Origin: Aurantiacibacter xanthus
Lineage (GTDB): Bacteria > Pseudomonadota > Alphaproteobacteria > Sphingomonadales > Sphingomonadaceae
Assembly: GCF_003584015.1 (NCBI RefSeq)
Contig: NZ_QXFM01000121.1
Coordinates: 1-34,791, forward strand
Direction of reading: 5' to 3'
DNA length: 34,791 nucleotides
Shown: positions 5,817 through 25,489 of the stretch, in pieces
Numbering within the stretch: the first letter of the stretch is position 1
Layout of the letters: the number at the start of each line of letters is the position of its first letter
The notes under the pieces: generated by a model
Databases searched by the model: none
The model's input: only the letters and a program-made list of their open reading frames with translations
What the model was told of the DNA's origin: nothing
Program-made: the position numbers and the translations under genes

Positions 5817-5919
5817 TTTTTGCAGAGGGCCCTCAATATATGGTCTTGCAATATGCTGCATGTGCGAGCATCTGGCAAGTGCATTTCGATTCGAAACGAA
5901 TCTCGCAAAGGACGAGCAC
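5817..5919. promoter_or_regulatory. Divergent marR/efflux promoter with nested palindromes
   Basis: The 103-bp gap holds a perfect 6-3-6 palindrome GATTCG-AAA-CGAATC (5888-5902), the best MarR operator candidate. It is enclosed by a longer perfect 13-bp inverted repeat, ATCTGGCAAGTGC (5870-5882) and GCACTTGCCAGAT (5916-5928). The right arm covers the TTG start of the efflux gene, and its ribosome site AAGGA (5908-5912) lies in the loop. A GAGGGCCCTC palindrome (5825-5834) sits just upstream of marR. No clear sigma-70 boxes were identified. Confidence 0.6.
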
Positions 5920-10140: not shown

Positions 10141-10872
10141 TCAGATGTCTTTGAGTTCGCTGACGATCTCGTAGCGATCACCGCGATAGACCGACCGCGT
10201 GAACTCCACGATACGGCCATCGGGAATGCGCGTAAGCCGCTCGATCCGCAAAACCTCGGAGTTCTGCTTAACGCTGAGAATTCCCGCCTCGGTCGGTGTT
10301 GCGAGCGACGCCCGCACGCGTTGCTCGCCAAAGGTTGGCCGAAAGCCATTCCGGTCGAGCGCCTCGTATAGGGAATCGCCCAGCATCTCGAGGTCGGGCA
10401 GGAATTGCGCAGGGATCACGGCATGTTCAATCGCCAGCGGCTCGCCGCCTGCGAGACGAACGCGGCCAAGACGAGCGACCTTTGCACTCGCCGACACTTC
10501 CAGCGATGTGGCTTCTTCCTCGGTCGGCTGCGCGTAGGTCTTGTTGATCCAGACGACACCGGGCGCCTCACCGCGCGACCGGGTTTCGTCGCTGAAGCTG
10601 CTCAGCTTGCTGCCGGGAGTCTCGATCCGGCGCGCGACAAAAGTGCCCGAGCCCTGCTTGCGGACCAGAACACCCTCTTCAATCAGTTGCTCGATCCCCT
10701 TGCGGACGGTGACGCGCGACAAGCCCGCCATCTCGCTCAGGTCACGCTCGGAAGGCAAGGCGCTGCCGGGATCTATGCCGCCACTGTTGATGTGCTCGCG
10801 CAGGCTGCGGGCGAGCTGGAGGTAAAGCGGACCTCCCTCGTCGTTTCGGCTCCAGGCAATCTCACGCATCAT
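10141..10872 (-). CDS. GntR/HutC family regulator with UTRA domain, NagR-like
   Basis: The 243-residue protein has an N-terminal GntR winged helix (about 14-82: SERDLSEMAGLSRVTVRKGIEQL, then the wing GVLVRKQGSGTFVA). A UTRA effector-binding domain (about 95-238) senses small phosphorylated sugars or carboxylates in this family. DasR and NagR bind GlcN-6-P or GlcNAc-6-P. It is the last gene of the leftward operon and overlaps murQ by 4 bp (ATGA), so it is probably autoregulated with the pathway it controls. A shared ACYGGTATTGAT motif upstream of both halves of the island is its likely target, by inference. Confidence 0.9.
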   Translation of the reverse strand: MMREIAWSRNDEGGPLYLQLARSLREHINSGGIDPGSALPSERDLSEMAGLSRVTVRKGIEQLIEEGVLVRKQGSGTFVARRIETPGSKLSSFSDETRSRGEAPGVVWINKTYAQPTEEEATSLEVSASAKVARLGRVRLAGGEPLAIEHAVIPAQFLPDLEMLGDSLYEALDRNGFRPTFGEQRVRASLATPTEAGILSVKQNSEVLRIERLTRIPDGRIVEFTRSVYRGDRYEIVSELKDI

Positions 10873-11780
10873 TCGTCAGTCTCGCCTTTTACGGCCTGCT
10901 GGGCAAGCGTCTTGAGAGCCTTTCGCAGATCACCGCCATTGGCGCTGAGCAAAGTCTCCGCCTCGCCCACCGAACGACCGGACGCCACCAGCACGGCGAG
11001 GCGAATTTCGTTGCCCGTCGCCGCGAGCGCGCGCGATGCTGTGCCTTCATCCACTCCGGCAATATCCTGAACCATGCGGCACCCACGTTGCAAGAGCTTC
11101 GCATTGGAGATGCGCATCGCCACCATGCGACCCTCGTAGACAAGGCCTCGCCGGATCATGATCGCGGTCGACAGCAGATTGAGCATGGCCTTCTGCGCGG
11201 TGCCCGCCTTCATGCGCGTCGAACCGCCGACGATCTCGCTGCCCGTGACGGCGCAGATCGGGTGCTCCGCCGCACCCAGCAGGGCGGACCCGGCATTGTT
11301 GGCAATCGCGATGGTGAGCGCGCCTGCGGCCCGCGCCTGTTCGATAGCGGCGAGCGTGTAAGGCGTCCGCCCGCTGGCGGCGACACCGATCACGACATCG
11401 GCGGGACCGATCCCGGCGGCATCGATCTCGGCCCGGCCAGCCTCGACATCGTCCTCGGCCCCCTCATAGGCTTCGGTCAGCGCGCTGACACCCCCGGCCA
11501 TGAGGAAGACCATCCGTTCCATCGGCCAGCCATAGGTCGGCCACAGCTCTGCCCCGTCCTGCACCGCAAGGCGCCCAGAGGTTCCTGCCCCGACAAAGAC
11601 CAGACGCCCGCTGTCACCCAGCCGCTCAGCCGCAGCCTCCGCCGCATTGGCGATCATGGCGGTTTGCGACTGGAGCGCGGCGATCGCCGCCATCTGCCCT
11701 TCGAGCATGGCCTCGACGGCAAGCTCGGTCGGCCAGAGGTCGAGGTCACGGTAACGGGGATCGAGGGCTTCGGTTTTCAT
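10869..11780 (-). CDS. murQ: N-acetylmuramic acid 6-phosphate etherase
   Basis: MurQ cleaves the D-lactyl ether of MurNAc-6-phosphate in the cytosol, giving GlcNAc-6-phosphate and D-lactate. The 303-residue protein is a single SIS domain followed by a UBA-like helical tail, the normal length. It carries GAGTSGRLAVQDGAEL (64-79, sugar-phosphate binding plus the active-site Glu), EGAEDD (106-111) and GSEIVGGSTRMKAGTAQK. AAGG precedes the ATG by 6 nt, and 12 bp separate it from the symporter gene. Both of its products have dedicated enzymes in the divergent operon: NagA for the sugar and D-lactate dehydrogenase for the lactate. Confidence 0.96.
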   Translation of the reverse strand: MKTEALDPRYRDLDLWPTELAVEAMLEGQMAAIAALQSQTAMIANAAEAAAERLGDSGRLVFVGAGTSGRLAVQDGAELWPTYGWPMERMVFLMAGGVSALTEAYEGAEDDVEAGRAEIDAAGIGPADVVIGVAASGRTPYTLAAIEQARAAGALTIAIANNAGSALLGAAEHPICAVTGSEIVGGSTRMKAGTAQKAMLNLLSTAIMIRRGLVYEGRMVAMRISNAKLLQRGCRMVQDIAGVDEGTASRALAATGNEIRLAVLVASGRSVGEAETLLSANGGDLRKALKTLAQQAVKGETDE

Positions 11781-11792
11781 GAGACACCTTGG

Positions 11793-13358
11793 TCAAATAG
11801 CAGCGGCAGCACGGTCCTTGCCGGGCCCGGCAGGGACTACGCAGACTACGAAAGCCACAAGCGTGGCGATGCAAAGCTGGAAGGGGAACGACAGCCCGCT
11901 CAGCACCTGCGGCATGCCGATGATGTGCGCGATGCCGGGCTGAAGCAACAGAACGGTGACAAATCCGATAATCAGCGAAGCAATCACCGAATTGGTCGTA
12001 CCGCGCGATGTGAAGAGGGCTGTGAAATAGACGCCCAGCAGGCCAGCGTAAGTAAACACCATCACCTGCAGCGCGAATTCGAGCAGACCCATGTCGGAAT
12101 AGCGCTGCCAGTAGAACGACACGACCGCCATCACGAACATCGCGAAGCCGATCAAACCCATCCCGGCCCGACCTGCATTGACATAGTGATGCTCGGGCGG
12201 CGTGCTGCGCTTCTCCTTCCACGGACGGTAGAAGTCCTGCACCAGCACCGAGGACATGGCGTTCAGCGCCGAATTGGTGGTGGCAACCGCCGCCGCGCAG
12301 ATGCCGATGGTGACAAGGCCGCGCAGCCCACCCGGAAGCTGGGTCAGGATGTAGTGCATGAAGACGCTGATCTTCTCACCGCCGAATTCACTGCCGAGCG
12401 CAGCGGTGGTGCCGCCCATCAGGTCGGGCCGGTCATAGAAAACGTAAAGCAGCAGGCCGATCACGATGAACATGCCCACCACCGGCACCGTCGCCAGGAC
12501 CGAGAGATAGAGGCTCTTCGCGCCGGTCTTGGCATCCTTGCACGAGAGCAGGCGCTGCGTGGTATCCTGATCCATACCGGCATTGGCGATGTAAAGCAGC
12601 GACAGGCCGCTCACGATCGCCAGCATCGAGAACGGACGCGAGGGATCGACGGAAAAATCGAACAGCCTGAGCTTGTTGATACCTTCGGGTGTATGCATCA
12701 GCCCCTGCACGATATCGCTGGTCGAGGCCGGGATAGACATGCGCAGGAAAACCACCACCGCGACCGCAGAGCCGATATAAATGACGAACTGAATCAGATC
12801 GTTCCACAGCACCGAGCGCAGGCCGCCGATAAAAGTGAACAGCACGCTGGCGATAATCAGCAGCGCAGCGGCAATCATAATCCCGCCCGCTTCGACCGTT
12901 CCGGTGATGACCATCGCCAGAGCAATGGCCGCAAGATAGACGCGCGCACCACCGGCGAACACCCGGCCGACGAGGAACATGCCCCCGGCCCAGCGGGTCG
13001 CCTTTTCCGAAAAGCGCAAGGTCAGAAGTTCGTAAGCGGTGGTTGCCTTCATCGCGTAGAAGCGCGGGATCATCACATGGGCGACGAAGATCGCGCCGAG
13101 CAACCCGCCGATGTTGCCGCTCAGATAGGTAAGGTCGCCGTGGTAGCCGTAGTCCGGCCCGCCAAGGAAGGTCGCGGCGGACTGTGTCGCCGACAAGACC
13201 GAAATGGCCGCGAGCCAGGCCGGCACCGTGCCGCCGGCGAGAAAATAGTCATGGGCCGACGCGGTCTTGCGCGGAGTAAAAATCCATCCGCCCGCAATCA
13301 GCAGCAGCAGATAGGCCGCAATCACCAGCCAGTCCGCCAGGGAAAACGGCAGCGTCAT
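11793..13358 (-). CDS. Sodium:solute symporter (SSS family), amino-sugar uptake candidate
   Basis: This 521-residue inner-membrane symporter has about 13-14 hydrophobic helices and SSS-family features: an N-terminal DYFLAGGT motif, ISVLSATQSAATFLG in TM2, and GGLRSVLWNDLIQF. The ATG at 13358 has GGAG 9 nt upstream and was preferred over a TTG two codons earlier. Placed between the TonB receptor and MurQ, it should take the ligand delivered by the receptor across the inner membrane using the sodium gradient. The sugar would enter unphosphorylated and need the cytosolic kinases encoded nearby. Sugar specificity is inferred from context only. Confidence 0.92.
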   Translation of the reverse strand: MTLPFSLADWLVIAAYLLLLIAGGWIFTPRKTASAHDYFLAGGTVPAWLAAISVLSATQSAATFLGGPDYGYHGDLTYLSGNIGGLLGAIFVAHVMIPRFYAMKATTAYELLTLRFSEKATRWAGGMFLVGRVFAGGARVYLAAIALAMVITGTVEAGGIMIAAALLIIASVLFTFIGGLRSVLWNDLIQFVIYIGSAVAVVVFLRMSIPASTSDIVQGLMHTPEGINKLRLFDFSVDPSRPFSMLAIVSGLSLLYIANAGMDQDTTQRLLSCKDAKTGAKSLYLSVLATVPVVGMFIVIGLLLYVFYDRPDLMGGTTAALGSEFGGEKISVFMHYILTQLPGGLRGLVTIGICAAAVATTNSALNAMSSVLVQDFYRPWKEKRSTPPEHHYVNAGRAGMGLIGFAMFVMAVVSFYWQRYSDMGLLEFALQVMVFTYAGLLGVYFTALFTSRGTTNSVIASLIIGFVTVLLLQPGIAHIIGMPQVLSGLSFPFQLCIATLVAFVVCVVPAGPGKDRAAAAI

Positions 13359-13390
13359 GAACAAGATCTCCGAAATTGGCGCGCCGGGAA

Positions 13391-13428
13391 CCGGGGCCTC
13401 GACAGGTCAAATCCCGCCAAGGCCCCGG
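13391..13428 (-). other. Inverted repeat upstream of the symporter gene
   Basis: A perfect 9-bp inverted repeat (CCGGGGCCT at 13391-13399, AGGCCCCGG at 13420-13428) encloses a 20-nt loop in the 155-bp receptor-symporter gap. No U-tract follows on the transcribed strand, so it is not a standard terminator. It may shape mRNA processing. Confidence 0.5.
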
Positions 13429-13438
13429 CAGCAACCCA

Positions 13439-13502
13439 CCCGACAGGGAGGGGAGGTAGCGGCGTCCGTCAGCAGAGGAGTGCAGCCGGACGCCGTGTCG
13501 GG
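13439..13502 (-). other. Nested hairpin downstream of the TonB receptor gene
   Basis: The outer arms CCCGACA (13439-13445) / TGTCGGG (13496-13502) and inner arms CGGCGTCCG (13460-13468) / CGGACGCCG (13487-13495) form one interrupted stem. It begins 11 bp after the receptor stop codon. The absence of a following T-run argues for an attenuating or RNA-stabilising element rather than a strict terminator. Confidence 0.55.
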
Positions 13503-13513
13503 GGGGCTTCTTC

Positions 13514-16246
13514 TTACAGGCTGGCGGTCAACGAGAGACCGACAGTCCGTCCAAGGATGTCGTAGGTGTCGGGGAAGGTATTGAACACACCGCCCTTCGA
13601 CACTGCCGGCGGATCCTTGTCGAACAGGTTGTAGATGCCGAGGGTCATCGTCAGACCTTCAAGGAAATCGTACGACGCGGCGAGGTCGAACGTGTCCTGC
13701 GCACCGATCGTCTCGGTCGAACCGGCCGTGCTCGAACGCACCTTGCCGATCCGCTGCCAGTCGAACTGGATCACACCCTTGTCGAACAGCAGGCCGACAC
13801 CGACGCTGTGGCGATAGTCGGGCTGCACCAGGGTCGTGCCGTCGCTCGAACAGGTGGCGCCGAACGTCCCCTTGCACTGAATCGCCTCGACGGTCGGGTT
13901 CGCCTGGATCTCGTAGGACGTAACGACATTGCCCTGATAGCTCAGACGCAGGCCGTCACCGGGCACCCAGTCCTCACGCAGCGTGTAACTGGCCGAAAGG
14001 TCCAGGCCGCGCTGCAACAGGCGGCCCAGGTTCTGGTTGTTGACGAAGGCGTCCTTGAACGAACCGTCGGCATTGCGGGTGACGAGGTTGCACAGCGGAT
14101 TACCGGCGGTCGGATTGGTGATGTAGCAGCTGGTGATCGCCGCGATCGGCTGGATCACGCCTACCGCACCCTTGAGGTCGAGTTGATACCAATCGGCGCT
14201 CAGCGTGAGGCCCGGCGCGAAGACCGGCGTGATCACCACACCAGCGGTCGTCGTGAAGCCGGTTTCGGGCTTCAGATCGGGGTTGCCGCCATAGTAGTAG
14301 TTGCCGGTGAGATAGCCTGCCGAGGTCGAATCGACCGAGCCCTGCGCCGGAGCACCGAAGCGCGCGCACTGCTCCGCATTGCCGGTGCCGAGCACACACG
14401 GGTCGCCGCCGTAACGCGGCTTCAGGCGATCGACCGTCACCAGAGCGTTGAACGGCAGCGAGGAAACGCCACCGGCAAACTCACCGAAGTTCGGCGTCCG
14501 CAGCACGCGCTGGTAGGTTGCCCGCAGCCGCACATTGTCGTCGACTTCCCAGTTCCCCTCGACCTTCCAGGTGCCGTGGGTGCCGAACAGGTTATAGTCC
14601 GACAGACGGTAGGCACCGCCCACGTTGAACTCGCGGATCAGCGGCAGATCGTGCAGGACCGGGATCAGCACTTCGCCGTAAAGTTCCTTCACGTCGAACG
14701 AGCCGGTGTAGGCCGCCTGCACGCCCTGACGATAGGTGTTGCCGGTCAGCAGCGCAGTGTCCTGATCGATATCAGCGGTCTCCCGGCGATATTCGGCACC
14801 CACTGCGAAACCAATCGGTCCCGCGGGCAGCGAAAACAGCTCTTCAAGCGTGCCGCTCAAGGTGGCGGCCGCGACGAACTGGTCGCGCTTGCGGCTGAAA
14901 CCGTTGATCGGCTTGCCCAGCGCATCGGCCAGACCGGGCGCATTCGGACCGAAGATATCGATCGTGTTGACGATCGAGGCGAAGTTGTTGGCACCCGCAT
15001 TGTTGGTGACGAGGCCATCGCCGGTGATCAGCGTGTTCTCGGTCGAACGACCATACTGGGCATAGACATTCCAGTCGACCGCGCTGGTGAGCGGACCGCG
15101 CAGGCCCGTCTGGACCTGAAGCGTGTTACGCTCGGTCTGATAGTCGACCAGCCCGAGTTCGTAGAGCGAGCGCGAAACGTTTACATCCGCGGCACCGTTG
15201 ACGAAGGTGAGCTGGCTGCGGATCTGATCGGTCAGGAACGGATTGTCCTCGCTGATCGAAACCGTGCGGTTGACCGAAGCCGGGGTGGCACCGGGCGTAC
15301 CGGTCTCGGTGCTGCGCACGTTGGTGTACATCGCGCGACCGTAAAGCTCGACCTGCGGCGTGATGTCGTACTTGTAGAGCGCCGCGACGTTGATCCGCTT
15401 GAGCGGCGAAACGAGCAGATAGTTTTCCGACACGTTGGATGTGGCCGAGGGCGAGGTGGTGAAGGCACCATCGTCGCCGAAGCCAAACTTGCGACCGCTC
15501 GCCACATCGGTGAAGACACCGCCGATGCTGGCAATGGTCTGGTTCGGCGTCGCCGCCCAATCGCGCTGGTAGGCGCGGATCGGGTCACGCTGGGTATAGT
15601 CCGCCGCGAGCACCAGGTTGCCGCTATCGCCAAGCCCGGTGCCCAGCATCAGCGAACCGCCATACTGCGCGCCGCCATGGGTCGAGAGACGACCGGTCGC
15701 GCTGGCCGTCAGACCTTCGAAATCGTCGTTGAGGATGAAGTTCACGACACCGGCCACGGCGTCTGCGCCGTAGACCGCTGCGGCACCGCCGGTCAGCACA
15801 TCGGTGCGCTTGATCAGCGAGGCGGGAATGGCGTTGACGTCGACCGAGTTGCGGAAGCTGAACGGCGCGGCACGCGTGCCGTCGATCAGAACCAGCGAGC
15901 GGCTCTGGCCGAAGTTGCGCAGCTCCAGGACCTGCGCGCCGAAGGCGTCACTGCCTTGCGAGCCCTGGCGTACACCGCCCGAAAGCTGCGGAAGCGTGGT
16001 CGAGAAATCCTCGATGGTCAGCGCCGAGCGGAGCTTGATCTGCTCCTCGGAGGTCGAGACGATCGGACTGTTGGACTTGGCACCGGGCAGCGCGATACGC
16101 GTTCCGGTGACGACGATGTCGGCGCTCTCGTTCGAACCCGACTCGTCGGCAGACTGAGCATGCGCCGGCACCTGAAGCAGCGCGATGGCAAGCGCGCTCA
16201 ATCCGACAGCGTTCCTGTAAACCTTAACCATGCGATTCTTTTCCAT
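13514..16246 (-). CDS. TonB-dependent receptor for amino-sugar or muropeptide ligand
   Basis: This 910-residue outer-membrane active transporter has a signal peptide (about 1-31, ending VPAHAQ), a DIVVTGTRI TonB-box-like segment, a plug domain (about 45-165, with TGGAAAVYGADAVAGVVNFIL) and a beta-barrel to the C-terminus. The ATG at 16246 was chosen over the longer open frame because GGAGG lies 7 nt upstream and the signal peptide starts there. It is first in the transcript with symporter, murQ and the GntR gene. Its promoter holds three phased CCGGTAT repeats. Ligand identity is inferred from the neighbours and could be GlcNAc, chitooligosaccharide, MurNAc or muropeptide. Confidence 0.94.
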   Translation of the reverse strand: MEKNRMVKVYRNAVGLSALAIALLQVPAHAQSADESGSNESADIVVTGTRIALPGAKSNSPIVSTSEEQIKLRSALTIEDFSTTLPQLSGGVRQGSQGSDAFGAQVLELRNFGQSRSLVLIDGTRAAPFSFRNSVDVNAIPASLIKRTDVLTGGAAAVYGADAVAGVVNFILNDDFEGLTASATGRLSTHGGAQYGGSLMLGTGLGDSGNLVLAADYTQRDPIRAYQRDWAATPNQTIASIGGVFTDVASGRKFGFGDDGAFTTSPSATSNVSENYLLVSPLKRINVAALYKYDITPQVELYGRAMYTNVRSTETGTPGATPASVNRTVSISEDNPFLTDQIRSQLTFVNGAADVNVSRSLYELGLVDYQTERNTLQVQTGLRGPLTSAVDWNVYAQYGRSTENTLITGDGLVTNNAGANNFASIVNTIDIFGPNAPGLADALGKPINGFSRKRDQFVAAATLSGTLEELFSLPAGPIGFAVGAEYRRETADIDQDTALLTGNTYRQGVQAAYTGSFDVKELYGEVLIPVLHDLPLIREFNVGGAYRLSDYNLFGTHGTWKVEGNWEVDDNVRLRATYQRVLRTPNFGEFAGGVSSLPFNALVTVDRLKPRYGGDPCVLGTGNAEQCARFGAPAQGSVDSTSAGYLTGNYYYGGNPDLKPETGFTTTAGVVITPVFAPGLTLSADWYQLDLKGAVGVIQPIAAITSCYITNPTAGNPLCNLVTRNADGSFKDAFVNNQNLGRLLQRGLDLSASYTLREDWVPGDGLRLSYQGNVVTSYEIQANPTVEAIQCKGTFGATCSSDGTTLVQPDYRHSVGVGLLFDKGVIQFDWQRIGKVRSSTAGSTETIGAQDTFDLAASYDFLEGLTMTLGIYNLFDKDPPAVSKGGVFNTFPDTYDILGRTVGLSLTASL

Positions 16247-16377
16247 TTTTTTGCCTCCCTGATGCAGGCCATATCGTTTTTGTGCGCCCGAGGACTCGAC
16301 GGAAACCGCTTCCCGGTATCTAAATTGAAACATACCGGTATTGATTTGTAAAGCACCGGTATTGCATTGGTTTCTCA
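16247..16377 (-). promoter_or_regulatory. Promoter of the TonB receptor operon with phased CCGGTAT repeats
   Basis: The 131-bp gap between anmK and the receptor contains CCGGTAT at 16313-16319, 16335-16341 and 16356-16362, spaced 22 and 21 bp, about two helical turns each. The middle copy sits in the palindrome ATACCGGTAT (16332-16341). The second and third copies extend to ACCGGTATTG. The region also holds the GGAGG ribosome site. A closely matching motif occurs in the divergent promoter near 18461, pointing to a common regulator. Confidence 0.65.
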
Positions 16378-17475
16378 TCACACCCCAATGAGAGCCGGAT
16401 GATAGAGCGTTCCGCCGGTCAGCGGCGCGGGGACTCCCGTGGTTCCGGGGTATGTCAGCGGCAGACCCTGCGCGCTGCGCGCCGCCAGAAATGCCATCGC
16501 CTCTGCCTCGACGAAATCGCTCCGCAAGCCGAGGTCGTCGGCCTTGCGACAATTGCCGAGCCGTTCGCTCAAGGCCTCCATAAGCACCGGATTATGACAG
16601 CCTCCACCGCACACGACCCAGGTGCCGGGCGCTTGCGGCAAACTGCGCGCCGCCAGCGCAACCGAGTCGGCGGTGAAGGCAGTGAGGGTGGCGACTGCGT
16701 TCTCCAGCGAGAAGGCGTCGGCCCAATCGAGCGGAAAGTCGTAGCGATCAAGCGACCTCGGCCCTGTCCCACGGAAATGATCGTGCGACAGCAGCTGCGC
16801 GAGCACATCCTCGTCAACCACACCCGCTGCGGCAAGCCGCCCGCCCTCGTCGAATCGTCCTGCCCCTCGCGCCTGGACGATCTGATCGATCAGGCCGTTC
16901 GCAGGCCCGGTATCGAACGCGATCAGCTCACGCTCGGCGCCGATGAAGGTGAGGTTGGCCACCCCGCCGAGGTTGAGAAATGCCACCGGCAGTTCGAGCG
17001 ACAGCTTCTCCGCCAGCGCTGCGTGATAGGCAGGCACAAGCGGCGCCCCCTGCCCGCCCGCAGCCAGATCATCGAGCCTCATGCCCGCGACGACCGGCAC
17101 ACCAAGCGCATCAGACAAAGCCTGCGCATCGCCGATCTGAACCGTCAGCTTTCGCTCGGGTCGGTGCAGCACCGTCTGGCCGTGAAATCCCACCAGATCG
17201 GGCAACCGCCCCGCCGCCGCCACAACCTCGCGCGCAGCCCGCAAATGAGCTTCGTGCACGGCAGCCTCGGCGGCGCAAAGCGATGCCGGCGGCGCGCCGT
17301 AGCCATTCCACTTCAGCGCCTCCGCCGTGGCGTGCTGGATCAGGTTGCGCTCCGCATCTTCGAACGGCGAAAGGCATGCCGGAGCGAAAGCGTCGACGCG
17401 CCGACCATCGGTCTCGATCAGAGCCGCGTCCACGCCATCCAGCGAGGTGCCGCTCATGAAACCCAAAACCAGCAT
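16378..17475 (-). CDS. anmK: Anhydro-N-acetylmuramic acid kinase
   Basis: AnmK opens the 1,6-anhydro ring of anhMurNAc and phosphorylates it with ATP to MurNAc-6-phosphate, the substrate of MurQ. The 365-residue protein has the ASKHA kinase fold: GFMSGTSLDGVD (5-16), GFHGQTVLHRP, the FDTGPANGLID block, and a C-terminal VCGGGCHNPVLM nucleotide-binding motif. The ATG at 17475 has GGGAG 10 nt upstream; an ATG at 17484 would put that site too close. It follows the PP2C gene by a single base, so the two are co-translated. Its presence implies the substrate includes anhydro-muropeptide products of lytic transglycosylases. Confidence 0.95.
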   Translation of the reverse strand: MLVLGFMSGTSLDGVDAALIETDGRRVDAFAPACLSPFEDAERNLIQHATAEALKWNGYGAPPASLCAAEAAVHEAHLRAAREVVAAAGRLPDLVGFHGQTVLHRPERKLTVQIGDAQALSDALGVPVVAGMRLDDLAAGGQGAPLVPAYHAALAEKLSLELPVAFLNLGGVANLTFIGAERELIAFDTGPANGLIDQIVQARGAGRFDEGGRLAAAGVVDEDVLAQLLSHDHFRGTGPRSLDRYDFPLDWADAFSLENAVATLTAFTADSVALAARSLPQAPGTWVVCGGGCHNPVLMEALSERLGNCRKADDLGLRSDFVEAEAMAFLAARSAQGLPLTYPGTTGVPAPLTGGTLYHPALIGV

Positions 17476-17476
17476 C

Positions 17477-18331
17477 TCAGTCATTCTCCCACTGACAGAC
17501 GACGAGACTGGCATCGTCATGCGGCTTCACCCGCGCATAGCGGCGCAGCGAGTCCGGCTCGCCCTCCAGCGCGCGCAGGCGACCGAGCCAATCCTGCCAG
17601 TCCTGTTCATTGGAAATTGCCAGCATTCCGGCCGCGTCGGTGACGTTGAACAGCTCGATCAACCGCAGAAATCCGTCGCTTGCGAGGGCAAAACGCTGTC
17701 CTGCCGTGATCGGCAAGCGCGCCTGCCAGACGTGATCGGCAGCAGCAGGATCGACGCCGAGGATCCAGTAGCCACCCTCGCGGTTCATCAAGGCACGGTT
17801 GTCTTGCAGCCCCGGCATCAGCCGCGCCTTCAGCTCGTCCGGCGCGATCTCGGGCTCGGCCCGCAGGATCGCCTTCATCGCGGCAATGGTCCGGGCCTCG
17901 ATCTCATCGATAGCGGACGCCCCGTAAAGCCGAGCATTTCCCGTCTCATCGCGCGCCGCAATGCGGCAATCGGCCAAGGTCGTGAATTCCGCCTCGCCAT
18001 CGATTATGCGAACCATTGCAAAGGCAGCGGACGGCATTTCGTGCGGCCCGTCTGCGGAGCGGATTTGCTCGCGCGCCAGTGTCTCCGCGCAACGCGCCAT
18101 CACCTCGCGCAGAACCGCAAGAGTCGGCAACGACGGGCTCTCGGCCAGCACCTGCGCCAGCACCCTGTTGGCGGTTTGCGCGAACCAGGCGGCATCGCTC
18201 GGACCGTCGAGCAGGTTTTCGCCGATACCGGTCGCGCCGTCGATGACCCAGGCCGCATCGCCATAATGGCCCACCGCGTCTTCGTTAACGCGCGATTGCC
18301 CTGCGGAAACGGCAAGATCGATCCTGAGCAT
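17477..18331 (-). CDS. PP2C-like protein phosphatase domain protein
   Basis: The 284-residue protein carries the metal-binding motifs of PPM/PP2C serine/threonine phosphatases: NED (16-18), VIDGATG (29-35), ALASDGF in the C-terminal third and HDDASLVV near the end. No membrane segment, sensor domain or signal peptide is seen. The ATG at 18331 has AGGAG 8 nt upstream. It is first in the leftward operon and touches anmK. No kinase partner is encoded in the window. Its role in amino-sugar use is unknown. It could dephosphorylate a Ser/Thr-phosphorylated enzyme or transporter, or act on a small phosphorylated molecule. Confidence 0.85.
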   Translation of the reverse strand: MLRIDLAVSAGQSRVNEDAVGHYGDAAWVIDGATGIGENLLDGPSDAAWFAQTANRVLAQVLAESPSLPTLAVLREVMARCAETLAREQIRSADGPHEMPSAAFAMVRIIDGEAEFTTLADCRIAARDETGNARLYGASAIDEIEARTIAAMKAILRAEPEIAPDELKARLMPGLQDNRALMNREGGYWILGVDPAAADHVWQARLPITAGQRFALASDGFLRLIELFNVTDAAGMLAISNEQDWQDWLGRLRALEGEPDSLRRYARVKPHDDASLVVCQWEND

Positions 18332-18478
18332 TCGTTTTCTCCTGATTGCAACCTGAAGGGCACATGCATCTCGCTCGTGAACCAAAGGTCACTCGAATCT
18401 CATCCGGGCTACAACCCGCCGATGCAAACCAATCTAATGCCACTTGTGCGATGTCGTCAAACTGGTATTGATAAGCAT
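18332..18478. promoter_or_regulatory. Divergent promoter of the amino-sugar island
   Basis: These 147 bp separate the PP2C-anmK operon from the deaminase operon. ACTGGTATTGATAAG (18461-18475) matches ACCGGTATTGATTTG in the receptor promoter (16334-16348) at 12 of 15 bases and ends just 3 bp before the deaminase ATG. The GntR/UTRA protein is the obvious candidate binder. No strong ribosome site precedes the ATG at 18479, so that transcript may be leaderless or short-leadered. Confidence 0.6.
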
Positions 18479-19534
18479 ATGACCACACCGACGAAAAACA
18501 CCGCCACGAAAATGACGCAGGAGGCTCGCGAAGCTCCTGCGCGCGCCACGGAGCAACTGCGCCTCAATGCAGATCTGGTTCACGAAGCCGGCAAGCGCCT
18601 GCGCGAACTGTCTCCTCCGTTCGTCGCCACGCTCGCACGAGGAAGCTCGGACCAGGCGGCGGCTTTCGCGAAATATCTTCTGGAAGTTCACGCTGGCATA
18701 CCGACGCTGAGCCACGCGCCCTCGGTCGGCTCGCTCTATCACGCCACTTCGCCGCGCTTCAAAGGCGTGCCGCTGATCGCCATTTCGCAATCGGGCCGCA
18801 GCCCTGACCTGATCGCTGCGGCAGAAGATGCGCGCCGACAGGGCGCGGTAGTGATCGCCGTGGTCAACGATGCCGAGTCGCCGCTCGCCCAACTGGCCGA
18901 GATTGTCATTCCCGTGCATGCGGGCGCGGAAACCAGCGTAGCAGCGACAAAGAGCTTCGTGTGCACGCTCGTCGCCCTCACCCACCTCGTCGCCGAATGG
19001 AGCGAGGATTCTGCGCTCCTTGCCGCGCTCGATACGGTCGGCGACGTGCTGGAAGAAGCGGCCAATGCCGACTGGTCCGCTGCCGTCCCGCTGCTCAGGG
19101 ATGCGGAGGAAATGCTGGTGCTGGGCCGAGGCCCGACCCTGCCGATCGCAGGTGAGGCGGCGCTGAAACTCAAGGAAACCTCAAGCCTGCACGCCGAAGC
19201 CTTCTCCAGCGCCGAAGTGGCGCACGGCCCGATGACATTGGTGGGAGAGGGTGACCCCGTGCTGGTCCTTGCGCCGTTCGATGTTGCGCGCACCGGTCTG
19301 CGCGAGCGGCTGGAGGACTTTGCCGCGCGCGGTGCGAATATCATCGCCGCCGGCCTGCCCGAGGATGTCGCGCCCGCCCTGACCGTGTTGCCCTTGCGCT
19401 CGGACACACATCCTGTGCTGGCCGCCATTGCCCAGATCCAGAGTTTCTATGCGCTGGCCGAGACGCTTTCGCTGGCGCGCGGCCGCAACCCTGATAATCC
19501 GCCTCATCTGAACAAGGTGACGCGCACATTATGA
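18479..19534 (+). CDS. Glucosamine-6-phosphate deaminase, SIS type (NagB-II)
   Basis: The 351-residue protein consists of two SIS domains and lacks the glutaminase domain of GlmS, the architecture of NagB-II deaminases that convert GlcN-6-P to fructose-6-P and ammonia. The first domain has ARGSSDQA (53-60), ISQSGRSPD (102-110) and ETSVAATKSF. The second has LGRGPTLPIAGEAALKLKE and AEVAHGP. It sits immediately upstream of nagA with a 4-bp ATGA overlap, which strongly supports catabolic direction. The ATG at 18479 lacks a clear ribosome site; an in-frame ATG at 18512 is the alternative. An aminotransferase role without glutaminase is unlikely. Confidence 0.92.
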   Translation: MTTPTKNTATKMTQEAREAPARATEQLRLNADLVHEAGKRLRELSPPFVATLARGSSDQAAAFAKYLLEVHAGIPTLSHAPSVGSLYHATSPRFKGVPLIAISQSGRSPDLIAAAEDARRQGAVVIAVVNDAESPLAQLAEIVIPVHAGAETSVAATKSFVCTLVALTHLVAEWSEDSALLAALDTVGDVLEEAANADWSAAVPLLRDAEEMLVLGRGPTLPIAGEAALKLKETSSLHAEAFSSAEVAHGPMTLVGEGDPVLVLAPFDVARTGLRERLEDFAARGANIIAAGLPEDVAPALTVLPLRSDTHPVLAAIAQIQSFYALAETLSLARGRNPDNPPHLNKVTRTL

Positions 19535-20694
19535 GTACGCCCTCCCCCAAGCTGACCGCCCTCACCGGCGCGCGCATCGTGATGGCCGACCGCGTGGTAG
19601 AAGGGCAGGCGCTGATCCTCGATACCAATGGCCGCATCCACGCTCTGGCAGAGACCCTGCCTGACAATTGCGAGGTGCAGGATCTGGGCGGCGGCTGGCT
19701 GCTGCCGGGCTTCATCGACACCCAGGTGAACGGCGGCGGCGACGTGCTGCTCAACGACCAGCCGACCGTCGATGGCATCCGCGCCATTGCCGCAGCGCAT
19801 CGTCGCTATGGCACCACAGGCCTGCTGCCGACGCTGATCAGCGACCACGCCCCGGTCGTCGAGGCGGCCATCGCGGCTGGCGAAGAGGCGCTTTCGGCCG
19901 GTGTGCCGGGCGTGCTGGGCGTGCATATCGAAGGCCCCCATCTCAACCCGGTGAAGAAGGGGATTCACGACGCCGAGCGGTTCAGCGCGGTGGACGAGGC
20001 AGTGATCGCGCGGCTCACGGTCCCGACCAGCGGTCGCCGCATCGTCACCCTCGCCCCTGAGCTCGCCCCGGCGGGCACGGTCCGCGCGCTGGCCGAGGCA
20101 GGCGTGCTGGTCTGCGCCGGACACAGCCTTGCCGATTACGACCAGACCCGCGCCGCGCTGGCGGAAGGTCTGGCCGGGTTCACCCATCTGTTCAATGCGA
20201 TGACACAGTTCCTCAGCCGCGATCCGGGCATGGTCGGCGCGGCGCTGGAAGACCGCTCCACGCACTTCGGCCTGATCGTCGACGGGCTGCACGTTCACCC
20301 CGCTTCGCTCAAGGTCGCGCTGGCCGCGCGCGGCATTGAGGGGGCGATGCTCGTCACCGATGCGATGCCTCCCGTGGGTGGGACACTCGAGCACTTTACG
20401 CTGATGGGTCAGGATATCGCCGTGGTCGACGGCACCTGCCGCGGACCGGACGGCACACTCGCCGGTTCGGCATTGACCATGGCGCAGGCATTCCGCAACG
20501 CGATGGATATGATGGGCTGCGATATCGTCACCGCCTCGCGTATGGCCAGCGGCAACCCCGCGCGGTTCCTGCGGATGGACAGCGAAACCGGCACGATTGC
20601 GCCGGGCCTTCGCGCCGACCTCGTCCACCTCGACGACGCCCGCAAGGTCACTGCAACCTGGATCGACGGCGCGCGCGAGGACAGCGGCGAATGA
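19531..20694 (+). CDS. nagA: N-acetylglucosamine-6-phosphate deacetylase
   Basis: NagA removes acetate from GlcNAc-6-phosphate to give GlcN-6-phosphate for the upstream deaminase. The 387-residue amidohydrolase shows the expected metal and catalytic residues: HIEGPH with E134, AGHSLADYD with H198, THLFNAM with H219 and the catalytic TDAMPP with D277. Length is normal. AAGGTGA lies 10 nt before the ATG, and both ends overlap neighbours by 4 bp (ATGA), so the five genes form a tight translationally coupled operon. GlcNAc-6-P arrives from MurQ and from the BadF-type kinase. Confidence 0.96.
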   Translation: MSTPSPKLTALTGARIVMADRVVEGQALILDTNGRIHALAETLPDNCEVQDLGGGWLLPGFIDTQVNGGGDVLLNDQPTVDGIRAIAAAHRRYGTTGLLPTLISDHAPVVEAAIAAGEEALSAGVPGVLGVHIEGPHLNPVKKGIHDAERFSAVDEAVIARLTVPTSGRRIVTLAPELAPAGTVRALAEAGVLVCAGHSLADYDQTRAALAEGLAGFTHLFNAMTQFLSRDPGMVGAALEDRSTHFGLIVDGLHVHPASLKVALAARGIEGAMLVTDAMPPVGGTLEHFTLMGQDIAVVDGTCRGPDGTLAGSALTMAQAFRNAMDMMGCDIVTASRMASGNPARFLRMDSETGTIAPGLRADLVHLDDARKVTATWIDGAREDSGE

Positions 20695-21755
20695 CCCCCG
20701 AGCTGGGCCTGATCGAAGGCCGCTTCGGCCGCATCTGGGACGAGGCCGAGCGCGGTTATGTGGTAAAGACGCTCGCCGATGCCGGCTATGCCTTCTATCA
20801 CTACGGCCCCAAGGCCGACCGGTCGCTGCGGCGCGAATGGCGCATCTCGCCCGACGCAGACTACGCCGAAAGGCTCGCACGGCTGTCTGCCGAAGTGCGC
20901 GCATCGGGAATGCGCTTCGGCATGGCGTTGACGCCGGTTGGCTCCACGCACCCCTTTGACGACGGCGCGCGCGAAGACCTCAAACGCCGCGTGGCGGAGC
21001 TGGACGCCATCGGCATCGACGATCTGTGCGTGCTGTTCGACGACCTGCGCGGCGACATGCCCGACCTCGCCGCCCGACAGGCCGACGTGGTGAACTTCTG
21101 CGCCGACCTCACGCGGGCGACCCGCGTCTACACCTGCCCGACCTACTATTCCGACGACCCGGTGCTCGATCTGGTCTTCGCCCAACGACCCGAAGACTAC
21201 CTCGGCGACCTTGGCCGCCGCCTTGACGCCTCGGTGCAGGTCTACTGGACCGGCGAGGAAGTCTGCGCGCGAGCCATCGAGCCCAGCCATCTGGAGCGGG
21301 TCGCGGGGCAGCTCGGGCGCAAGGTCTGTCTGTGGGACAACTGGCCGGTGAACGACGGCGCCCGCATGTCGCGCTTCCTGCACCTGCGCGCCTTCACCGG
21401 ACGCAGCGCCAAGTGCGCCGACTGGCTGACCGGCCATGCGATCAACCCCGCCATTCAGGCCCATCTCGGCTGCATCCCCGCGCTGACCCTGCCGATGGTC
21501 TATGGTCAAGGCGATAGTTACGCTTACCGAGCTGCCTTCGCCTCCGCCGCGCGCCAGCTTCTGGGCGACGAATTTGCGCTGATGCTACAACAGGATATCG
21601 CAGCCTTGCAGGATGTCGGACTAGAGCGGCTCGGCACACGGGCAGATCGCCTGCGCGCCCGCTACGCGCCAATCGACCACCCTGCCGCCCGCGAGATCAC
21701 CCGTTGGCTCGACGGTCACGACCTGATGACCGACGACGAGGTGCAAACCCAGTGA
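20691..21755 (+). CDS. GH84-type beta-N-acetylglucosaminidase, cytosolic
   Basis: The 354-residue protein matches the GH84 (O-GlcNAcase/hyaluronidase-type) catalytic barrel: LGLIEGRFG near the N-terminus, the catalytic aspartate pair in LFDDLRGD (D117/D118), TCPTYY (148-153), VYWTGEEV (WTG 186-188) and LWDNWPVNDG. GH84 enzymes cleave terminal beta-GlcNAc by substrate-assisted catalysis. It has no signal peptide and lacks the extra domains of secreted relatives, so it should act in the cytosol. Flanked by nagA and D-lactate dehydrogenase (4-bp overlaps on both sides), it probably releases GlcNAc from an imported disaccharide such as GlcNAc-anhMurNAc. Action on O-GlcNAc proteins is an alternative. 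Confidence 0.88.
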   Translation: MTPELGLIEGRFGRIWDEAERGYVVKTLADAGYAFYHYGPKADRSLRREWRISPDADYAERLARLSAEVRASGMRFGMALTPVGSTHPFDDGAREDLKRRVAELDAIGIDDLCVLFDDLRGDMPDLAARQADVVNFCADLTRATRVYTCPTYYSDDPVLDLVFAQRPEDYLGDLGRRLDASVQVYWTGEEVCARAIEPSHLERVAGQLGRKVCLWDNWPVNDGARMSRFLHLRAFTGRSAKCADWLTGHAINPAIQAHLGCIPALTLPMVYGQGDSYAYRAAFASAARQLLGDEFALMLQQDIAALQDVGLERLGTRADRLRARYAPIDHPAAREITRWLDGHDLMTDDEVQTQ

Positions 21756-23437
21756 CCGACCTGCCCGCCACCCTGCGCGAAATTGTGGGCAGGTGGCATG
21801 TGCTGACCTCCGCGCGCGCCACGGCGCGTTACCGCAAGGGTTATCGCACCGGCGAAGGCCCCGCGCTGGCAGTGGTACGGCCGGGCAGTCTGCTCGAATT
21901 CTGGCGGGTCGCGAGCGCCTGCGTGGCCGCCGACGTGTCGATCATCGTCCAGGCCTCGAACACCGGGCTGACCGGTGGCTCCACCCCCGACGGTGCAGAC
22001 TATCCGGGCGGTCTCGTGATCATCAGCACCACGCGGCTCGCCGGGCTCAAGGTCATCCGCGATGGCCAGCAGGTGCTGTGCATGCCCGGCGCGACGCTCA
22101 ACCGGCTCGAACAGGCGCTGCGCCCCTATGGCCGCGAGCCGCATTCGGTGATCGGCTCGTCCTGCCTCGGCGCCTCGGTGGTTGGCGGCGTGTGCAACAA
22201 TTCGGGCGGCTCGCTGGTCCGGCGCGGCCCTGCCTATACCGAGATGGCGCTGTACGCGCAGGTGCAGCCAGATGGCACCCTGCGGCTGATCAATCACCTC
22301 GGCATCGCCCTCGGCGAGGAGCCCGAGGACATTCTTTCCCGCATCGACAGCGGCAACTATAGCGATGCCGACATCGATCCGGCTGAAGACCGCCGCGCCC
22401 ACGATCACGATTACGTCGCCCATGTGCGCGATATCGACAGCGACGTGCCCGCGCGCTTCAATGCCGATCCGCGTTGCCTGTTCGAGGCGGCCGGCAGCGC
22501 GGGCAAGCTGATCGTCTTCGCGGTGCGGCTCGACACCTTCGCGCGCGAGGAGAACACCGCCACCTTCTACCTCGGCACGACTGAGCCTGCGCGCCTGACC
22601 GAACTGCGCCGCACCATGTTGCGCGACTTCGCCGCGCCGCCGATTGCTGGCGAATACATGCACCGCGACGCCTTCGATATCGCCGACCGCTATGGCCGCG
22701 ATACCTTCGTCGCCATCGAGAAGCTGGGCACCGACCGCCTGCCCGCGTTGTTCGCCGCCAAGGCGCGGTTCGACGGGTTTTTCGGCGAAGGCGTGAGCGA
22801 CCGGCTGATGCAGCGTGCAAGCCGTCTGATCCCCGATCACCTCCCTCACCGCATGCGCGCTTTCCGCGATCGCTTCGAGCATCACCTGATCCTCAAGGTC
22901 TCCGCCGATCAGGCCGAGGCGACGCGCGAACTGCTCGCCCGCCTGTTCGCCGACACGCAGGCAGCGCATTTCGAATGCACCGCCGGGGAAAGTGCCAAGG
23001 CCTTCCTTCACCGCTTCGTCGCCGCCGGAGCCGCCGTGCGCTACCGCGCCGTTCATCGTGGTGAGGTGGAGGACATCGTCGCGCTCGACATCGCCTTGCC
23101 CCGCAATACCCACGAGTGGGTCGAGCAGCTTCCCGCCGACCTCGCCCGCCAATCGATCCACACGCTCTATTATGGGCACTTCTTTTGCCAGGTGTTCCAT
23201 CAGGACTACATCGTGGCCAAGGGCACCGATCCGCTCGCCTACGAACATGCGCTGTGGAAGCTGCTCGACGCGCGCGGTGCGCAATATCCGGCCGAGCACA
23301 ATGTCGGCCACCTCTATGTCGCGCGGCCCGAACTGGCGGACTTTTACCGCAGCATAGACCCGCGCAACCAGCTCAACCCCGGCATCGGCCATACCTCCAA
23401 GGCGCGCGACTGGGCGGAGACCGGAGAACAAATATGA
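21752..23437 (+). CDS. dld: Quinone-dependent D-lactate dehydrogenase
   Basis: Dld oxidises D-lactate to pyruvate, passing electrons from FAD to the quinone pool at the inner membrane. The 561-residue protein has the FAD-binding PCMH fold (VQASNTGLTGGSTPDG, 67-82; CLGASVVGGVCNNSGGSLV) and the C-terminal membrane-associated Dld domain with YYGHFFCQVFHQDYIV and EHNVGHLY. The start is GTG at 21752, overlapping the GH84 stop as GTGA; the stop overlaps the next gene as ATGA. D-lactate is the second product of MurQ, encoded in the opposite operon, so its position is metabolically coherent. Confidence 0.95.
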   Translation: MTDLPATLREIVGRWHVLTSARATARYRKGYRTGEGPALAVVRPGSLLEFWRVASACVAADVSIIVQASNTGLTGGSTPDGADYPGGLVIISTTRLAGLKVIRDGQQVLCMPGATLNRLEQALRPYGREPHSVIGSSCLGASVVGGVCNNSGGSLVRRGPAYTEMALYAQVQPDGTLRLINHLGIALGEEPEDILSRIDSGNYSDADIDPAEDRRAHDHDYVAHVRDIDSDVPARFNADPRCLFEAAGSAGKLIVFAVRLDTFAREENTATFYLGTTEPARLTELRRTMLRDFAAPPIAGEYMHRDAFDIADRYGRDTFVAIEKLGTDRLPALFAAKARFDGFFGEGVSDRLMQRASRLIPDHLPHRMRAFRDRFEHHLILKVSADQAEATRELLARLFADTQAAHFECTAGESAKAFLHRFVAAGAAVRYRAVHRGEVEDIVALDIALPRNTHEWVEQLPADLARQSIHTLYYGHFFCQVFHQDYIVAKGTDPLAYEHALWKLLDARGAQYPAEHNVGHLYVARPELADFYRSIDPRNQLNPGIGHTSKARDWAETGEQI

Positions 23438-24303
23438 CCTACTATCTCGGGATCGATGCAGGCGGCAGCAATTGCCGCGCAAGGCTGATCGATGCCAACG
23501 GAGCAGTCATCGGCAACGGGCGTTCCGGCACCGCCAATGCCCGCATCGGCATCGACGCACTGTTCGAGACGCTCCAGGACACGGCCACGCAGGCGCTCAC
23601 CGAAGCGGGACTGAATGAGGCGCAGCGCGCGCAGGTCCATGCCGGGATGGGCATCGCCGGGATCACCCGCCCCGGCATGCGCGAGGCTCTGGCCAAGCTC
23701 GACTTCGGCTTCGCCTCGGTCAACTACGCCACTGACGCGCAGATCGCCAATCTGGGTGCTCATGGAGGTCAGGACGGCGCCATCCTCATCATCGGCACCG
23801 GCAGCGCAGCCCAGTGCCGTGTGGATGGTCAGGATTTCACCATCGGCGGCTACGGCTTCCCGATCTCAGACGAAGGCAGCGGCGCGGCGCTCGGGCTCTC
23901 GGCCATGCGCCACGCCTTGCGCGCGCTCGACGGGCGCACCCGCAAGACCCCGCTCAGCGCCGCCGTGACCGAGCGCTTCAATCACGATACCGCGCAGGCC
24001 ATCGCGTGGATGGATCAGGCCACCCCGCGCGACTACGGCACCTTCGCGCCGCTGGTGATGGATTACGCCGAAGCCGATGACGCGATCGCCCGCTCTATCG
24101 TGGAGAACGCGGCAAGCCATATCGAACGCTTCATCGAGACCATCTTCGAACGCGGTGCCACGCGCTGCACGCTGGTCGGAGGGCTCGCCCCGCGTATGCA
24201 GCCCTGGCTGCGCAATCGCACCGTCGAACGGCTGAGCGAAGCCATGGGCGACTCGCTCGACGGAGCGCTTCGGCTGGCAGGCTATGTAAGCGAGCCTGGG
24301 TGA
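23434..24303 (+). CDS. BadF/BadG-type N-acetylhexosamine kinase
   Basis: The 289-residue ASKHA-fold kinase has the phosphate-1 motif YLGIDAGGSNCRARL (D8), the phosphate-2/adenosine motifs IIGTGSAAQ and PISDEGSGAALG, and LVGGLAPRM near the C-terminus. Relatives include GlcNAc kinases, glucosamine kinases and the dual MurNAc/GlcNAc kinase MurK. It would phosphorylate the free sugar imported by the symporter or released by GH84. Last gene of the rightward operon, it ends 16 bp from the convergent histidine kinase gene with no evident terminator between. Whether it accepts MurNAc as well as GlcNAc cannot be told from sequence. Confidence 0.9.
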   Translation: MTYYLGIDAGGSNCRARLIDANGAVIGNGRSGTANARIGIDALFETLQDTATQALTEAGLNEAQRAQVHAGMGIAGITRPGMREALAKLDFGFASVNYATDAQIANLGAHGGQDGAILIIGTGSAAQCRVDGQDFTIGGYGFPISDEGSGAALGLSAMRHALRALDGRTRKTPLSAAVTERFNHDTAQAIAWMDQATPRDYGTFAPLVMDYAEADDAIARSIVENAASHIERFIETIFERGATRCTLVGGLAPRMQPWLRNRTVERLSEAMGDSLDGALRLAGYVSEPG

Positions 24304-24319: not shown

Positions 24320-25489
24320 TCACGCTGCGTGGGTGGCGAGGCTGGACAGGTGGATCTGAAACACCGCTCCTGCCTCATCGCGCGGGACTAGCAGCAGCCT
24401 GCCGCCATGGGCCTGCACGATCTGCTGCGCCAGGCTCAATCCGATGCCGCTTCCGGCGGCCTTGGTCGTCACAAACGGGCGGAAGATCCGATCACGAACA
24501 GCCGGATCGATGCCGCCGCCATTGTCGGCTATCTCGATGACGACCGGGCCCTGTCCTGTCACCGTGAGCCCGATGCGTGGTTCGGAGGAATGTTCGATCG
24601 CCGCCTCGGCCCCGTTCTGCAGCAAGGCCCACAGCGCCTGTTCGAGCTGATCGCGATCTGCCGCGACCGTCACCCTCTCTTCGATCGAGCAGGACAGCCG
24701 TACGCGCTCGCCCCAGCGCGCCGCGAACATGCGGGAAAGATCCACCACGAGTTGGTCCAGCGAAACAATGCCCACAGCCGGCTCGGGCAGCCGGGCCAAC
24801 TCGCGATAGGCTGCGGTAAACTGAAGCAGCCCGCCCGAGCGCCTGCCGAGCGTACCAATCGCGTCGCGCAGGGCAGCTGCCGGGACCGGCTCCTCGTCCA
24901 GCATAAGCAGAGCGCTTTCGGCGAGCGAAGAAATCGGCGTGATGGCGTTCATCACCTCGTGGCTGAGAATATCGAGCACTTCCCGCGTCGCGCGCGCTTC
25001 GGCCATGCGCTCCTCGTTCTCTACATCGATGATTGCGGCAATGGTGCGCATGCTCACGCTCTTCGTGCCTTCGACCCGGTCAATCCTGTAGGTGCGGCCG
25101 AACAGCGTCATCCGCGGCACTCCCGCAGACAGCTCCGGCGGCGGTTCGGGGATGAGGTCGCTCGCGGCGAACAGCTCGCGCGCCGCGCGGTTGAGCGCAC
25201 GGACACGGTTGTCGCTGCCAATCGACACCAGCGCGACGGGCATTTTCTCCAGCACGGCGCGCAGCAGGACATGCATCGCCTTGTCCTCGCTCCCGGCATC
25301 GTTCTCGACCAGCCCGCCGGTAACCGGCGGGCGGCGCCACACCATCAGCGCCGCAAGCCAGGCAGCCATGAGCAAGGCCAGAGCGAACGATGCCAGAAAG
25401 CCGCCCTTCCATGCGGCAACGGACATGGCCCCGCTCCCGAACAGGAACACCGGCACGAGCACCGCCGAGGCCGAGCGACTAAAGGCCAT
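24320..25489 (-). CDS. Sensor histidine kinase
   Basis: This 389-residue inner-membrane kinase starts with two closely spaced hydrophobic helices (about 8-28 and 31-51). A short PAS-like region (about 72-155) follows, then an H-box [14 protein letters not shown] with H177, and an HATPase_c domain with N292 (QNGAEAAIE), DNGGG (322-326) and the GSGIGLSL lid (346-353). The ATG at 25489 overlaps the end of the response regulator gene by 11 bp in another frame; translation is coupled. The tiny periplasmic loop argues for membrane or cytosolic sensing. It partners the regulator upstream and presumably controls the divergent export operon. Confidence 0.92.

Follow-up and report, generated by a model that had tools for sequence, protein, structure and literature searches.

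A peptidoglycan-sugar gene island in Aurantiacibacter xanthus and a proposed NagZ-like role for its GH84 glycosidase

The Escherichia coli pathway for N-acetylmuramic acid (MurNAc) and its 1,6-anhydro form (anhMurNAc) comprises AmpG, NagZ, AnmK, MurQ, NagA, NagB and Dld, and the reactions catalyzed by AnmK, MurQ, NagA, NagB and Dld are well characterized. Here we describe an island of Aurantiacibacter xanthus whose genes point to the same chemistry, from anhMurNAc to MurNAc-6-phosphate and on to N-acetylglucosamine (GlcNAc)-6-phosphate and D-lactate. The island lies on contig NZ_QXFM01000121.1, analyzed in its entirety as a window of 34,791 bases from a 4.38-Mb genome with an estimated completeness of 99.86%. 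Unlike in E. coli, the genes stand in a single island, a glycoside hydrolase family 84 (GH84) enzyme occurs alongside the family 3 (GH3) NagZ of the genome, NagB-II replaces NagB, an SSS-family symporter and a TonB-dependent receptor replace AmpG or the phosphotransferase system (PTS) transporter MurP, and dld is placed within the gene string. We propose, with a probability of roughly 0.7, that this is a self-sufficient and horizontally spread island for the catabolism of a peptidoglycan disaccharide, in which GH84 takes the role of NagZ.

Two other described systems are close to this locus. The Shewanella-type Nag genes (NagK_SO3507 and NagB-II SO3506) define the best-matching families for the kinase and the deaminase, both under cut-off; relative to that type, the island adds MurQ, AnmK, GH84 and Dld, and its regulator is of the GntR type. 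The recycling system of Caulobacter crescentus has NagZ, AnmK and NagA of the alphaproteobacterial kind in common with the present genome, while C. crescentus, according to the excerpt available, has no MurQ and recycles by way of MurU (PMC13046382). In the titles and abstract openings searched, we found no published link of GH84 to peptidoglycan and none of MurQ or AnmK to Dld in a cluster.

Gene content and the proposed disaccharide route

Functions were assigned from gene content and sequence comparison, with bit scores read against family cut-offs. The original prediction had placed nine genes for MurNAc and GlcNAc use between 10141 and 24303, and all nine were found there with family-level profile support, although a GH84 gene (20691–21755) and a PP2C-like gene (17477–18334) had been overlooked. 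The gene coordinates bore out its two divergent operons, which are separated by an intergenic region at about 18335–18478. The plus-strand operon encodes NagB-II, a glucosamine-6-phosphate deaminase with SIS domains (18479–19534; NF046059, 319 bits, under the equivalog cut-off of 430); NagA, a GlcNAc-6-phosphate deacetylase (19531–20694; TIGR00221, 264 bits, cut-off 226); a stand-alone putative beta-N-acetylglucosaminidase of GH84, the O-GlcNAcase family (PF07555, 156.1 bits, gathering score 25); Dld, a quinone-linked D-lactate dehydrogenase of the E. coli type (21752–23437; NF008387, 873 bits, cut-off 391), which carries the PF09330 membrane-binding domain (424 bits, cut-off 25); and a BadF-family, NagK_SO3507-like GlcNAc kinase (23434–24303; PF01869, 102 bits). 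The best named family of this kinase was NagK_SO3507 itself (NF046058, 249 bits, under the cut-off of 370), and its matches in the PDB included 1zc6 (E 3.6e-36) and the MurNAc/GlcNAc kinase 8zo3 (E 5.6e-14), suggesting that it is a GlcNAc kinase and possibly a MurNAc kinase in addition. The open reading frame coordinates and translations placed 4-bp overlaps at all four junctions of this operon, namely NagB-II/NagA (19531–19534), NagA/GH84 (20691–20694), GH84/Dld (21752–21755) and Dld/kinase (23434–23437), and the genes are presumably co-transcribed. The overlaps that had been reported to join dld to the sugar genes are thus real, but its immediate upstream partner is the omitted GH84 gene.

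The minus-strand operon is headed by the PP2C-like gene (PF13672, 29.9 bits, cut-off 24), followed by the genes for AnmK, the anhydro-MurNAc kinase (16378–17484; NF007141, 471 bits, cut-off 352), the TonB-dependent receptor (13514–16246; PF00593 barrel and PF07715 plug), the SSS-family sodium:solute symporter, a putative inner-membrane importer (11793–13358, with an ATG start; PF00474 (SSF), 90 bits, cut-off 22.8), MurQ, the MurNAc-6-phosphate etherase that releases D-lactate (10869–11780; NF003915, 335 bits, cut-off 168), and a GntR/UTRA regulator of the HutC type (10141–10872; PF07702, 113.8 bits, and PF00392, 67 bits). MurQ also scored 251 bits against the TIGR00274 equivalog, under its cut-off of 302, and its gene overlaps that of GntR by 4 bp (10869–10872). 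No MurP PTS transporter was found in the cluster, in which the symporter and the receptor were the transporters found.

AnmK works on an anhydro sugar that lytic transglycosylases generate as part of a disaccharide. In the proposed route, the receptor and the symporter would bring in this lytic-transglycosylase product, GlcNAc-1,6-anhydroMurNAc, and GH84 would cut it in the cytoplasm to GlcNAc and anhMurNAc, the step performed elsewhere by the GH3 enzyme NagZ. The BadF/NagK kinase would phosphorylate GlcNAc, AnmK would open the anhMurNAc ring and phosphorylate the sugar to MurNAc-6-phosphate, and MurQ would split the latter into GlcNAc-6-phosphate and D-lactate. NagA and NagB-II would then lead GlcNAc-6-phosphate to fructose-6-phosphate, and Dld would convert D-lactate to pyruvate with the electrons entering the quinone pool. 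The co-occurrence of AnmK and a GlcNAc-type kinase in the island requires a glycosidase, and GH84 provides one; with it the route is complete from GlcNAc-anhMurNAc to fructose-6-phosphate and pyruvate, every step having a candidate gene in the island. Recognition of GH84 therefore shifts the likely substrate from the monomers to the disaccharide, while the original claim that both halves of MurNAc are routed to central metabolism was well supported by the gene content and by the conserved linkage of dld to murQ described below. Two published observations concern single steps: in the available excerpts, an Agrobacterium nagZ mutant builds up GlcNAc-anhMurNAc and GlcNAc-MurNAc (PMC9790009), and the Dld of Corynebacterium glutamicum is a quinone-linked enzyme required for growth on D-lactate (PMC3022706).

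The same genes could also be read as a system for free MurNAc and GlcNAc, or for sugars from chitin, with GH84 as an accessory enzyme that trims GlcNAc from imported beta-glycosides and not as an analogue of NagZ, because NagA, NagB-II, the NagK-type kinase and the TonB receptor form a GlcNAc route as well. GH84 enzymes are broad beta-GlcNAc hydrolases, and NagZ is still encoded in the genome, both of which suit this explanation. The substrate of AnmK, however, is an anhydro sugar that arises within the lytic-transglycosylase disaccharide, and outside the island GH84 lies near AnmK, AmpG, MurQ or NamZ in separate lineages. We therefore regard the monomer explanation as unlikely, though the best placed of the alternatives.

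We also examined the window for a shared operator. The pattern CYGGTATTGAT, which was chosen after the sites had been viewed so that its statistics are post hoc, has exactly two sites in the window, both candidate operators on the plus strand: CCGGTATTGAT upstream of the receptor gene (16335–16345) and CTGGTATTGAT upstream of nagB-II (18462–18472). A single-mismatch site lies inside the SSS gene, and three matches were reached in 1 of 100 shuffles. In 18 loci, a matrix built from 35 promoter regions scored 26 sites over threshold, and because 25 of these lie in the training promoters themselves, the test is circular; the 26th was inside the receptor gene of locus L044, and L038 had no matrix site over threshold. 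These data merely hint at a single regulator shared by the two operons, and GntR may govern them through the common GGTAT-type site.

The GH84 enzyme

The GH84 protein has 354 amino acids and, by eye, no signal peptide. Its catalytic residues are intact: the catalytic Asp-Asp pair (D117, D118) and the Lys, Tyr, Asn, Asp and Asn of the pocket (K41, Y153, N217, D222, N252) were matched by alignment to OgOGA and were invariant in 18 of 18 aligned GH84 proteins, and we take their roles to be those given in the OGA literature. The predicted fold is the OGA fold. No GH3 catalytic domain (PF00933) was detected, NAGidase being the sole domain at E 0.001; as the gene between nagA and dld encodes a GH84 protein, it was rejected as a NagZ or as a second deacetylase. 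The enzyme is likened to NagZ by its proposed function and is not proposed as a member of GH3; the NagZ of alphaproteobacteria performs the reaction proposed here for GH84 but belongs to an unrelated glycosidase family, and the present genome has both.

The closest solved relatives of the protein are O-GlcNAcases. With the bacterial enzymes of this group (OgOGA, 2xsa; TtOGA, 5diy; CpNagJ; BtGH84) it has the fold, the Asp pair and the pocket residues in common, whereas it differs from them in its length of 354 residues and its place within a peptidoglycan-sugar operon. This relationship, and the removal of O-GlcNAc from a protein substrate by the Thermobaculum GH84, as stated in the excerpt available (PMC4683255), would be in line with an O-GlcNAcase that acts on glycoproteins and whose place in the operon is regulatory, like that of the neighboring PP2C-like protein. 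The linkage of GH84 in several lineages is to sugar catabolism, and on this linkage evidence we consider the role very improbable. We favor a GlcNAc-anhMurNAc hydrolase as the proposed activity.

Conservation, mobility and genomic background

Neighbor genes were counted by tblastn, and locus (L) and family labels (f1, f3, f58, f116) are internal to this analysis. A scan of named genomes for GH84 gave 22 loci, and the closest relatives of the island were found in Novosphingobium and Sphingomonas. GntR, MurQ, the SSS symporter and the TonB receptor stood beside GH84 in 14 of the 22. AnmK, NagB-II and NagA were each present in 10 of these 14 islands, and the kinase and Dld in 11 each, the latter including the Dld of L038, which is 61% identical and lies on the opposite strand. 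PP2C was found in 7 of the 14 and also on the plasmids L075 and L076 and in L131, while L032, with a partial match only, was not counted. Both plasmids are from Novosphingobium (757 kb and 1.8 Mb) and carry all eleven genes. The linkage of dld to murQ, which the original prediction had named as its own test, was kept in 11 of the 14 named islands, on the two plasmids, and in the diverged loci L082 and L131 described below; the coupling to D-lactate disposal is real as conserved gene order. A chance placement of dld was rejected, since the pairing recurs across the named islands and in two additional families.

None of GntR, MurQ, SSS, the receptor, AnmK, NagB-II, NagA, the kinase, Dld or PP2C was found at the remaining 8 named loci. 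In two of these (L048, L049), NamZ, an exo-MurNAcase, is encoded about 0.35 kb upstream of GH84. The plasmid collection gave matches in 84 records, 67 of them in Enterococcus; 82 were below 60% identity, and matches below this value were left out of the neighbor study except for one in Aeromonas. The GH84 neighbors in Aeromonas (L077), in Pseudohaliea (L051) and in Paludibacterium (L052) included, by eye, nothing pointing to peptidoglycan sugars. Two loci had features of their own: in Novosphingobium sp. ST904 (L035, 11119–13644), Dld and the kinase each matched in two pieces, indicating broken frames or assembly errors, and in Sphingomonas abaci (L045, 11180–12754), the gene after GH84 encodes a YkuD L,D-transpeptidase that carries a peptidoglycan-binding domain.

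Within the genus, MurQ (window protein as query, E 1e-30) and GH84 were each found in 1 of 40 genomes, in both cases that of the window, and PF09330 in 2 of 40; across the order, only 3 of 147 genomes had an E. coli-type Dld scoring above its cut-off. Together with its presence on plasmids, the island looks horizontally spread. In the window, a DDE_5-type transposase gene lies near the left contig end (88–1203), and the contig may end in an insertion sequence. Upstream of the island is an efflux set (MFS/HlyD/OEP), and downstream (24320–26711) an NtrC-type two-component pair precedes HlyD, ABC, MacB and outer-membrane efflux genes.

The original prediction had based feeding, as opposed to recycling, on the failure to see amgK and murU. 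No amgK or murU was indeed present among the island genes scanned in the window, but an adjacent AmgK-MurU pair was found on another contig (L055), each under its NCBIfam equivalog cut-off and, by eye, flanked by tsaE and addB. NagZ is also encoded elsewhere (L059; NF003740, 227 bits, cut-off 207), and a genome without recycling genes was thus ruled out. In E. coli, AnmK and MurQ take part in recycling, and an ordinary cell-wall recycling cluster would be consistent with the AmpG gene at L082, which has no SSS match, and with those in the f116 clusters. The island, in contrast, comes with a TonB receptor, Na+ symporter, Dld and regulator of its own, occurs in 1 of 40 congeners and on plasmids, and stands in a genome where AmgK-MurU and NagZ could already cover recycling. 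We consider a recycling cluster improbable, a little more so than a system for monomers. The original interpretation is upheld in part, and its choice of feeding over recycling is the less certain portion. Recycling genes elsewhere in the genome would fit a catabolic function of its own for the island, but salvage is what the AmpG version and the clusters in the NagZ-less family look like.

GH84 in other families and its implications

GH84 occurred in 11 of 385 genomes of the class, and the regions around it were fetched from the ten other genomes, two as short contigs. L082 (G450, family f58) encodes a TonB receptor, GntR, AnmK, AmpG (TIGR00901, 358 bits, cut-off 350), GntR and MurQ, then the kinase, GH84 and Dld. 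Its proteins are 45–59% identical to their island counterparts (GH84 52%, Dld 55%), and in the tree its GH84 lies outside the supported clade of sphingomonad island GH84s.

A second diverged version, L131 (G002, family f3, same order), encodes NamZ, MurQ, GntR, PP2C, NagB-II, NagA, a membrane protein, a TonB receptor, SSS, the kinase and Dld, with identities to the island of 63% for the kinase, 48% for Dld and 34% for the PP2C-like protein (5859–6662). An IS240-type transposase lies right beside NamZ (2025–2735), and the membrane protein after nagA (8971–10029), with a weak DUF5009 match under cut-off, is in our view reminiscent of NagX. No GH84 or AnmK match was found at E 1e-6 on the 17.6-kb contig. 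If real, this replacement of GH84 and AnmK by NamZ would be expected if the imported substrate were a disaccharide, in its anhydro form for GH84 and AnmK and in its reducing form for NamZ. The product of NamZ would be free MurNAc, and because BadF is the only kinase found in L131, it may handle MurNAc too.

Four of the ten other loci belong to family f116, and all four regions contained MurQ and AnmK. Three of them (L084, L085, L086) also hold AmpG, which in L085 scored 349 bits against a cut-off of 350, and a YkuD protein; L085 further encodes an amidase and a protein of the NlpC/P60 type. A census of the family gave GH84 in 33 of 61 genomes, including 18 of 28 of high quality. Thirty of the 33 loci were inspected together with up to 1.5 kb of flanking sequence; 18 of them had AnmK and a further 9 had AmpG, which makes 27 of 30. 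A PIG-L deacetylase is encoded between AnmK and GH84 in L084, L085 and L086 and near GH84 in 18 of the 30. GH3 was found in 2 of 61 genomes of f116 and in none of the 28 of high quality, compared with 325 of 378 high-quality genomes class-wide, and the absence of GH3 from the high-quality f116 genomes implies the absence of NagZ. Complementarity of GH84 and GH3 within f116 was ruled out, as GH3 is missing with or without GH84.

Several observations weigh against a NagZ-like role of GH84 in disaccharide catabolism. The substrates of known GH84 enzymes are O-GlcNAc proteins and other beta-GlcNAc compounds. NagZ and AmgK-MurU are retained in the present genome, so that GH84 fills no gap here, and GH3 is found in 7 of the 11 GH84-positive genomes of the class, although only in open frames of 714–867 amino acids in two of these (G304, G407) and as two short frames (174 and 221 amino acids) in a third (G502). 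No queried peptidoglycan-sugar gene was found at 6 of the 22 named loci (L053 holds little downstream sequence) or beside GH84 at 5 of the 10 other alphaproteobacterial loci (L078, L065, L079, L080, L081; L065 is a 3.3-kb contig). Within 10 kb, three loci with MurQ, GH84 and importers (L040, L043, L050) had no AnmK, NagA, NagB-II, kinase or Dld, and L044 kept the kinase and Dld and had no AnmK, NagA or NagB-II; these four loci without AnmK also favor the monomer explanation. The contig of L131 stops 0.4 kb after dld, and genes for GH84 and AnmK may be located beyond its end. In f116, the remaining 3 of the 30 loci had a PIG-L gene only, one with an M19 dipeptidase as well, and 10 of the 28 good genomes have neither GH84 nor GH3, indicating that GH3 was lost independently of GH84.

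Taken together, these data make an enzyme of the O-GlcNAcase family the most likely catalyst of the NagZ step, both in peptidoglycan-sugar islands and, through a distinct lineage, in the NagZ-less family. The broader proposition, which we hold to be slightly better supported than its opposite, is that GH84, the family to which eukaryotic O-GlcNAcase, including that of humans, belongs, serves Alphaproteobacteria as a peptidoglycan-salvage hexosaminidase, and does so in three or more separate lineages of GH84, giving mobile MurNAc islands the ability to split the disaccharide and replacing NagZ in the NagZ-less family. The island packages D-lactate disposal with MurNAc use, which fits the lactate bottleneck in engineered C. 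glutamicum: in the excerpt available, lactate accumulates in a murQ-equipped strain fed MurNAc, and more dld is suggested by the authors as prevention (PMC6165865). A NagZ-like GH84 predicts a NagZ-independent recycling route, which would be of interest because NagZ inhibitors are under development to counter AmpC beta-lactamase of the inducible kind (PMC3920638). Structural studies of O-GlcNAc hydrolysis have made use of bacterial GH84 proteins, and the native functions of bacterial O-GlcNAcase orthologues are described in the same excerpted source as largely unexplored (PMC4683255). The conserved linkage to AnmK, AmpG, MurQ, NamZ and Dld offers a concrete candidate for the native substrate of bacterial GH84 and, if our proposal is correct, would give a native role to orphan bacterial O-GlcNAcase homologues.

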